From: Synoicihabitans lomoniglobus
GTDB lineage: Bacteria > Verrucomicrobiota > Verrucomicrobiia > Opitutales > Opitutaceae
Direction of reading: 5' to 3'
DNA length: 64,000 nucleotides
Assembly (NCBI RefSeq): GCF_029023725.1
Contig: NZ_CP119075.1
Span: forward strand, 3,281,501-3,345,500
Below the pieces are notes generated by a model. The model was not told the origin of the DNA. It ran no database searches and was given only the letters and a program-made list of their open reading frames with translations. The position numbers and the translations under genes are program-made. This document shows positions 20,009-62,157 of the stretch, one piece after another (position 1 is the stretch's first letter; each line of letters starts with the position of its first letter).

Positions 20009-20063
20009 GGTTAAAAATCGCAGGCTGACGGCTCTGTTGACCTCTGTTCCCTCCTGTAAAAAA
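20009..20063 (+). repeat. Solo intergenic repeat (CAGGCTGACGGC box plus CTCCTGTAAAAA arm)
   Basis: This has two parts. Bases 20009-20032 (GGTTAAAAATCGCAGGCTGA...) recur at 20986-21009 with two mismatches in 24. Bases 20032-20063 carry CTCTGTT...CTCCTGTAAAAAA, a single copy of the arm found as inverted pairs at 20901/21010 and 61672/62113. The arm ends about ten bases before the methyltransferase start, in the same orientation as the arms before 21153 and 62158. Confidence 0.7.
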
Positions 20064-20073
20064 TCCCGCCGCT

Positions 20074-20900: not shown

Positions 20901-21039
20901 TTTTTACAGAAGGCAACGAAGAGAACGAAGCCAGAAAACAAGAGAGTCCGTCCTACAAGATCGGTGTTTATCTGTGTCCATCTGTGGTTAAAAACAGCAG
21001 GCTGACGGCCTTCGTTCTCTTCGTTACCTTATGTAAAAA
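20901..21039. repeat. Empty inverted-repeat element of the GxxExxY-flank family
   Basis: Left arm 20901-20930 starts TTTTTACAGAAGGCAACG. Right arm 21010-21039 is its reverse complement with two mismatches in 30. The 79-base centre has no gene; it contains a 'TCTGTGTCCATCTGTGG' phrase and a second copy of the CAGGCTGACGGC box. The arms resemble the 30-base arms around the GxxExxY gene at 61709. Confidence 0.75.
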
Positions 21040-46050: not shown

Positions 46051-46121
46051 GTAGGAGCGGGCTTGCGCGCGATCACCCGTGCCTCTCCGCACCGACTCAT
46101 CGCGCGTAAACGCGCTCCTAC
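46051..46121. repeat. REP-like inverted repeat pair
   Basis: Left arm 46051-46073 (GTAGGAGCGGGCTTGCGCGC...) and right arm 46099-46121 (reading GTAGGAGCGCGTTTACGCGC on the opposite strand) form an inverted pair with about four mismatches in 23, spaced by 25 bases. It sits between the TauE-like gene and the amidohydrolase. The arm sequence closely recalls the GTAGGAGC-type REP family of Pseudomonas. Confidence 0.75.
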
Positions 46122-61605: not shown

Positions 61606-61671
61606 AGTGGAAATCGTTCTCGCGCCCTTCCTTTCGAACCGCAAGCTCAGCGCCAGTTCTCTGAAATTCTT

Positions 61672-61701
61672 TTACAGGAGGAAACAGAGAGAAACAGAGC
61701 T
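61672..61701. repeat. Left 30-bp inverted repeat of the GxxExxY element
   Basis: Starts TTACAGGAGGAAACAGAG and is the reverse complement of 62113-62142 with two mismatches in 30. It contains two tandem copies of an AAACAGAG unit. Confidence 0.85.
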
Positions 61702-61708
61702 TCCTGAT

Positions 61709-62110
61709 TTGCACCCTTCATTTGAAAAAGCCAGTTCGCTCACCGAAGAAGCGATTGCTTCGGCCATTGAGGTGCATCGGCACAAAGGTCCCGGACTAAA
61801 TGAATCGATCTACGAATGGTGCCTTTTGCGCGAGCTCGAGCTTCGCAAGTTGCCAACGATTAATCAAAAGACGGTGCAGATTGAATACAAAGGCTTCGTC
61901 AAAGCAGAATCCCTCCGGTTCGACGTGTTGTTGGCCGGGTGCCTGCTAATCGAAGCGAAATCAGTCGAACACCTCCTCCCCATCCACAAAGCCCAACTGC
62001 TCACCTATATGAAACTCTTGGATGTCCCACTCGGCCTGCTCATCAATTTCAATGTCACCAAGCTCACTGACGGAGTCAGTCGTCTGATACTACCCGGCGC
62101 CAACCGCTGA
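61709..62110 (+). CDS. GxxExxY family protein
   Basis: 133 residues from a TTG at 61709. The signature is SLTEEAIASAIEVHRHKGPG followed by LNESIYEWCLLRELE, where GPGLNESIY matches GxxExxY. The rest fits too: VQIEYKGFVKAESLRFDVLL, LIEAKSVEHLLPIHKAQLLT and PLGLLINFNV. The LIEAKS segment recalls the E-x-K of PD-(D/E)XK nucleases, and that relationship has been proposed for the family. The function is unknown. No ATG is available near the conserved start, and no good ribosome site precedes the TTG. The gene lies exactly between a pair of 30-bp inverted repeats, so gene and repeats look like one unit. Confidence 0.85.
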   Translation: MHPSFEKASSLTEEAIASAIEVHRHKGPGLNESIYEWCLLRELELRKLPTINQKTVQIEYKGFVKAESLRFDVLLAGCLLIEAKSVEHLLPIHKAQLLTYMKLLDVPLGLLINFNVTKLTDGVSRLILPGANR

Positions 62111-62112
62111 CC

Positions 62113-62142
62113 AGCTCCGTTTCCCTCTGTTTCCTCCTGTAA
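62113..62142. repeat. Right 30-bp inverted repeat of the GxxExxY element
   Basis: Reads AGCTCCGTTTCCCTCTGTTT on the plus strand; partner of 61672-61701. It begins two bases after the GxxExxY stop codon and ends 15 bases before the ATG of the nucleoside transporter. Confidence 0.85.
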
Positions 62143-62157
62143 TAAAACATCCACCAA

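Follow-up and report, generated by a model that had tools for sequence, protein, structure and literature searches.

What a small gene of the GxxExxY family is doing between two inverted repeats, and what kind of unit the three form together, is the question raised by one locus of Synoicihabitans lomoniglobus (Verrucomicrobiota; Opitutaceae). The analysis covers a 64,000-nucleotide stretch, here called the window, of its genome, which forms a single contig of 5.93 Mb. A preliminary description of the locus had read it as a possible mobile or captured unit. Its features are as follows.

61667..61701, plus strand: left arm, an outer T-run followed by three words
61674-61680, 61683-61689 and 61693-61699: left-arm words ACAGGAG, AACAGAG and AACAGAG, at steps of 9 and 10
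61709..62110, plus strand: GxxExxY gene, 133 aa, probable TTG start, predicted PD-(D/E)XK nuclease fold
62113..62147, minus strand: right arm, the mirror of the left
62134-62140, 62125-62131 and 62115-62121: right-arm words ACAGGAG, AACAGAG and AACGGAG, at steps of 9 and 10

The preliminary description had placed 30-nt arms with two mismatches around exactly one GxxExxY gene, and both points are borne out. The left arm at 61672-61701 (TTACAGGAGGAAACAGAGAGAAACAGAGCT) shares 28 of 30 bases with the reverse complement of 62113-62142 (TTACAGGAGGAAACAGAGGGAAACGGAGCT). Extended outwards to 61667-61701 and 62113-62147, the arms keep 89% complementarity over 35 nt and form the longest inverted pair within 700 nt in the whole window; the number of matches to the arm pattern expected in shuffled sequence is zero. 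The stop codon of the gene ends at 62110, and the right arm begins after 2 nt. The probable start of translation is a TTG at 61709, immediately inward of the left arm, since the decayed copy in the congener G020 carries an ATG at roughly the same point; with this start the gene lies wholly between the arms. The box, that is, the gene with its arms, sits between a gamma-carbonic-anhydrase-like gene and a nucleoside-transporter gene, not in 23S rRNA.

Profile searches place the enclosed open reading frame in the GxxExxY family (TIGR04256, E = 1.2e-35, 122 bits against a cut-off of 35), and its sole Pfam match is PF13366 (E = 5.9e-33, 114 bits against a cut-off of 22). Across 61 GxxExxY sequences, E32 and K84 never vary, and D72 and E82 hardly ever do. 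The best solved neighbour of the structure model (pLDDT 92.6) is the Cas4 protein SSO0001, a moderate Foldseek match (TM 0.53, E 1.8e-3); ACE1, LHK-Exo and lambda exonuclease are further neighbours, and all the best ones belong to the PD-(D/E)XK superfamily. A profile search of PDB sequences gave no significant match. In the model, the window protein has the alpha-beta core fold with D...(D/E)xK by which this superfamily is recognised. By sequence and predicted fold, GxxExxY is thus a Cas4/RecB-like PD-(D/E)XK-type nuclease, and the EAK motif, earlier taken as a hint of a nuclease, is the ExK of the predicted site. With the Cas4, RecB and lambda-exonuclease nucleases (SSO0001, ACE1, LHK-Exo, lambda exo), the family shares PD...ExK and conserved downstream Q and Y; it differs in being very small, in having no partner gene and in having repeat arms of its own, and the structural likeness stays at TM ~0.5 (E about 2e-3). 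Neither family profiles nor fold comparison of the window protein pointed to a known transposase or recombinase.

Enclosure by inverted repeats is general in this family. All six GxxExxY genes of the source genome are boxed, by arms that differ in sequence and follow one grammar; the box types are CACGGAA, CACAGAT (three genes), ACAGGAG/AACAGAG (the window) and CGCAAAA. GxxExxY is present in 102 of 120 genomes of the Opitutaceae and in 165 of 289 genomes of a sample of the phylum. Over 56 loci, the best inverted-repeat score of the flanks has a median of 23.75, against 11 for mispaired flanks. In 142 boxes, an arm consists of three copies of a 7-nt word, mostly C-R-C-N-R-A-N, at steps of 9-11 nt, or about one helix turn, and an outer T-rich stretch usually precedes the triplet. 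Positions 2, 3 and 6 of this pattern are partly imposed, because the word caller favours R, C and A there, while positions 4, 5 and 7 are free of this bias; about a third of the boxes give no clean word call.

In the well-called boxes, words agree between the two arms at 94% of positions versus 73% in mispaired boxes, the mispaired contrast being the fairer figure since words were chosen for agreement; the spacers agree at 56% versus 37%. The step pattern of one arm is repeated exactly in the other in 92% of these boxes, whereas shuffling gives a mean of 32% and a maximum of 49%. Conservation therefore lies mainly in the words and not just in a stem of perfect pairing. A few boxes (L199, L214, L238, L249 and L039) have words that run the opposite way (TTTCGTG, TTCCGTG), which would fit a gene placed between hairpins or arms that have flipped.

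The word tracks the protein. When word changes are counted over the tree of 158 boxed proteins, position 7 has 7 (the shuffled mean being 59.6 and the minimum 52), position 5 has 20 (52.7, 44), position 4 has 18 (41, 38) and position 2 has 17 (30, 26). The base at position 7 was that of the nearest protein in all 14 new well-called boxes from five further genomes. A scan of a genome collection for one clade alone returned more than 500 GxxExxY loci. For the GFLEAV clade, a CRCGRAA word had been predicted beforehand from Opitutia members, and among 80 named loci nearly all readable boxes carry a word of this type (CACGAAA 32, CACGGAA 16, CGCGAAA 11, others fewer); the two Chloroflexota loci were not readable. 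The word is kept in nine named phyla (Verrucomicrobiota, Planctomycetota, Kiritimatiellota, Calditrichota, Acidobacteriota, Pseudomonadota, Bacteroidota, Hydrogenedentota and Armatimonadota), of which single assignments may be wrong because many of the loci come from metagenome assemblies. Coupling of residues to words gave few supported independent pairs on the 158-protein tree. Tight linkage alone would also produce agreement between word and protein, so the agreement shows one unit, not recognition. The idea of one fixed arm family has to be given up: the arm is a word that changes from box to box with the protein clade. On this comparison of sequences, the gene and its two arms are one evolutionary unit.

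Arms also occur without a gene, as the preliminary description had noted, and two such features lie in the window itself.

20032..20064, minus strand: gene-less A-type arm TTTTTTACAGGAGGGAACAGAGGTCAACAGAG, with no matching partner arm close by
20901..21039, unstranded: gene-less hairpin of the sister B type, ACAGAAGG ... AACGAAG AACGAAG

Genome-wide, AACAGAGNNAAACAGAG with at most one mismatch has 23 matches, against 1 for a reversed-pattern control. A strict CRCNRAN-triple scan of 464 kb of the source genome finds few gene-less arms, because the A and B families are built of two words and a leading ACAG(G/A)AG; dedicated patterns give 12 A and 9 B matches, partly overlapping, in the same 464 kb and none in 324 kb of GxxExxY-negative genomes. 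B-type arms appear in the window only as a gene-less hairpin; at locus L383 of genome G053 they box a gene of the window's clade, 61% identical to the window protein.

Several details of these hairpins were seen in passing. The loop of the B-type hairpin at 20901-21039 holds a CACAGAT-type arm (minus strand, about 20960-20993). The A and B arms at L026/L313 are interleaved, which would fit insertion of one element into another. An inner motif, CCGTCAGCCTGC, stands beside the words of gene-less A/B hairpins (window 20022-20032; L010, L022, L024) and is absent from the gene-bearing box.

The number of gene-less copies is associated with the presence of the gene, and with its word. In the 120 family genomes we counted exact CACGAAA and CACAGAG doublets, of which a box itself contributes at most about four. 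Ignoring kinship, the 102 GxxExxY-positive genomes hold a mean of 23.0 doublets, while the 18 negative ones hold 13 in all (mean 0.72; P = 7e-8). Again with kinship ignored, CACGAAA doublets have a median of 31 in genomes with a fetched CACGAAA box versus 1 without (P = 2e-5), and CACAGAG doublets a median of 17 with a fetched CACAGAG box versus 2 without (P = 4e-4); a box of the other word has no significant effect on the counts in these 120 genomes (P = 0.12 and 0.67). Genome G029, whose single GxxExxY gene has the word CACAGAG, contains 134 CACAGAG doublets and no CACGAAA doublets, and G117, with genes of both words, contains many doublets of both. G005 is an exception, with 147 CACGAAA doublets and no CACGAAA gene among those read. 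The proposed association of arms with GxxExxY genes therefore survives, both in the six boxes of the source genome and in the near absence of the two arm words tested from gene-negative genomes; gene-bearing and gene-less forms of one element exist, as had been suggested, in a system wider than claimed.

Gene, arms and scattered hairpins look like one repeat system, in which the gene-bearing box behaves, from the sequences compared, like a gene in few copies that is often inherited vertically and accompanied by numerous gene-less satellites. The best explanation, to which we give somewhat better than even chances, is a word-coded inverted-repeat system: GxxExxY would read its own word in arms and hairpins and cut there, and the hairpins would spread. 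The protein, probably as an oligomer, would recognise its word in both arms and also in many gene-less hairpins elsewhere in the genome, and would nick or cut at the recognised words; host repair or replication might then occasionally copy hairpins into other intergenic gaps. The gene-bearing box would move rarely, being low-copy and often inherited in place, and may sometimes be transferred as a unit or lost with its arms left behind. From the word-specific genome counts and the nuclease site we infer that the protein reads the word and cuts and, one step further, that its cutting spreads the hairpins.

The gaps that hold the boxes bear on how such spread might work. Of the 142 boxes, 87 lie in shared orthologous gaps (24 before gatB, 22 before an FtsX-like ABC permease, 7 before alaS, and others; genes named from their start sequences). 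In one gap the word may differ between species, yet the copies within a box agree. Replacement occurs as well, since unrelated lineages share the alaS gap. Gene-less CACGAAA hairpins occupy the gatB and alaS gaps of the source genome; in congeners the gatB gap holds AGTAGCGAG hairpins (G020, G064, G111) or a GxxExxY box (G090). Arms of AGTAGCGAG box PF05635 four-helix-bundle genes in G064, G090 and G111, and two unrelated gene families therefore place hairpins in the same gaps. At the window's own gap, G020 retains a decayed box whose arms are A/B hybrids and in which part of the gene start survives; the hairpins of G090 and G121 at this gap are gene-less and carry other words.

Empty orthologous sites, part of the earlier idea of a mobile unit, exist at two gaps, in species too diverged for base-exact junctions. 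The leuC-leuD gap (named from sequence) is empty, at about 11-21 nt, in G064, G090 and G111, and is filled in G000 (CACGAAA) and G020 (CACGGAA); the L298 gap is filled only in G000. The leuC-leuD right arms of G000 and G020 have the same spacers, but two of their words, the first and the second, diverge at position 5, a pattern suggesting in-place change of words. Among the gaps orthologous to those of the source genome's elements, roughly 14 of 20 in G020 are occupied by some hairpin (counted by eye). This is far above the few per cent expected from about 12 word-type hairpins per 464 kb, so the gaps are either hot spots or places where a hairpin persists as its word is replaced.

The strongest rival, suggested by gaps that remain occupied although their words change, is a homing-like drive. 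In it the nuclease would cut gene-less hairpins with its word and repair would copy the gene box or the arm word into the cut hairpin, so that existing hairpins would be converted instead of new ones being inserted. It would account for the different word or class found in the same gap of congeners, for the gatB and alaS gaps, where the occupant is a gene box or a gene-less hairpin depending on the species, and for the concerted difference at position 5 in the leuC-leuD arms. However, gene-less hairpins multiply within a genome and gene-bearing boxes do not (paralogues mostly <65% identical), and at some gaps a hairpin has been gained although the gap is short and empty in congeners. We regard this variant as unlikely.

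Linkage alone is harder to sustain. The arms would then be operators or RNA stems (for autoregulation or mRNA processing), merely co-inherited with the gene, and another enzyme would spread the hairpins. Such linkage predicts the agreement of word and protein, and it is consistent with the many boxes that stay in the same gaps and with the partial pairing of the spacers. It does not fit the finding that genomes with a gene of a given word have an excess of unlinked gene-less hairpins in that word, nor the RAYT loci: of the 18 RAYT-type genes (PF01797) in the source genome, one of which has its end about 1.2 kb outside the window, ten were read, and none of the ten has paired word arms. We consider linkage alone improbable. 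RAYT as the driver of these hairpins was rejected on the same ten loci.

Still less probable is a conventional transposon, bounded by terminal inverted repeats, that encodes a new transposase and gives rise to MITEs, or else the capture of a cargo gene by a MITE. Insertion sequences that have MITE derivatives share with the boxes terminal inverted repeats, one gene, gene-less, non-autonomous derivatives and empty sites. The boxes differ from them in having no target-site duplication, no known transposase fold and no multicopy gene-bearing form; paralogues within a genome are mostly less than 65% identical. The lack of a target-site duplication at the window, already described, extends to 84 boxes, where none was found beyond the arm tail at symmetric or asymmetric offsets. 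Some insertion sequences lack such a duplication, so its absence is a weak criterion. A CACGAAA-clade protein query matched 8 of 72,556 plasmid records, and the window protein had no match in phages. With no target-site duplication, rarity on plasmids and no phage match, the gene-bearing box resembles an active transposon less than it does an inherited low-copy gene. Passive capture by a MITE was rejected because enclosure is general and the word is clade-specific. Of the mobile or captured unit first proposed, the single unit of gene and arms with gene-less versions stands, while active transposition and MITE capture fit poorly.

Hardly any credence can be given to an RNA element like the 23S rRNA intervening sequences, or to a simple terminator or attenuator of transcription: hairpins can form in RNA and genes of PF05635, the family of the intervening-sequence ORF, are boxed in a parallel way, but an Rfam search gave no match, the locus lies outside rRNA, word conservation exceeds pairing conservation, and the T-run stands outside the left arm while the coding strand 3' of the right arm reads A, not T.

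Among known systems, the REPIN-RAYT system is, by analogy, the closest working analogue, though not the same class. It has a low-copy, largely vertical protein gene flanked by repeats and many gene-less inverted doublets in intergenic gaps, commoner in genomes with the gene; repeats and protein co-evolve, occurrence on plasmids is scarce, and no target-site duplication is evident (PMC3116915, PMC8049555, PMC8266576). GxxExxY boxes share the low-copy, largely vertical gene, the flanking repeats, the many gene-less doublets and their greater number where the gene is present, the joint evolution of repeat and protein, the scarcity on plasmids and the lack of an evident target-site duplication. 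They are not members of that class, because the enzyme is unrelated (an HUH Y1 transposase, PF01797, versus a predicted PD-(D/E)XK nuclease fold) and the repeat tag is lacking: REPIN repeats are GTAG/CGTC-tagged palindromes, whereas GxxExxY arms are three phased 7-nt words, beginning with a T-run and ACAGGAG or AACCRC. Unlike REPIN-RAYT, several words and genes coexist in one genome. Other repeats were seen alongside: a GTAGGAGCGGGCTTGCGCGCGAT ... CGCTCCTAC palindrome at window 46051-46121 resembles a classical GTAG-tagged REP, and at L273:5311-5926 of the source genome several almost perfect palindromes, AGTGTAACCATTATGGTTACACT, recur in a cluster.

The 23S rRNA intervening sequences, which carry an S23 four-helix-bundle ORF, resemble the GxxExxY box in being short, selfish-looking units with one small ORF between inverted repeats (PMC4990558). 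Their family, PF05635, has parallel word-like arms in the genomes studied here; the protein is unrelated, the words are different, and the GxxExxY box is intergenic rather than in rRNA. PF05635 genes boxed by short-word inverted repeats were observed at L030-L032 in the source genome and at L402, L403, L405, L407, L413, L415 and L426 in congeners, with the words AGTAGCGAG, CTTTATCTTTATC, GGATTTTGGATT, AAGTCAGAAG and TCGTTCTC and a median repeat score of 16.75 versus 10 for mispaired flanks. A gene-less hairpin in the TCGTTCTC word lies at L266:2162-2252. In the open-access literature searched, GxxExxY is named by two papers, one of which mentions it in passing, and the related finds are work on REP/RAYT and intervening sequences only.

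For the family as a whole, a broader reading may be put forward tentatively, at somewhat less than even chances. GxxExxY proteins would be word-reading PD-(D/E)XK nucleases that drive their own class of hairpins, REPIN-like on an unrelated enzyme; the six copies of the word in the arms would evolve in step with one another and with the protein, and the unrelated small proteins of PF05635 would run parallel word systems that compete for the same gaps. The enclosure of GxxExxY genes by their own repeat word, and its genome-wide association with them, joins two questions, the function of GxxExxY and the source of a large class of intergenic hairpins in these bacteria, in one testable hypothesis. 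If it is true, 23S rRNA intervening sequences would gain a wider context, and these genomes would offer a naturally occurring set of small proteins whose DNA words can be read and change, in which the evolution of protein-DNA specificity could be followed.
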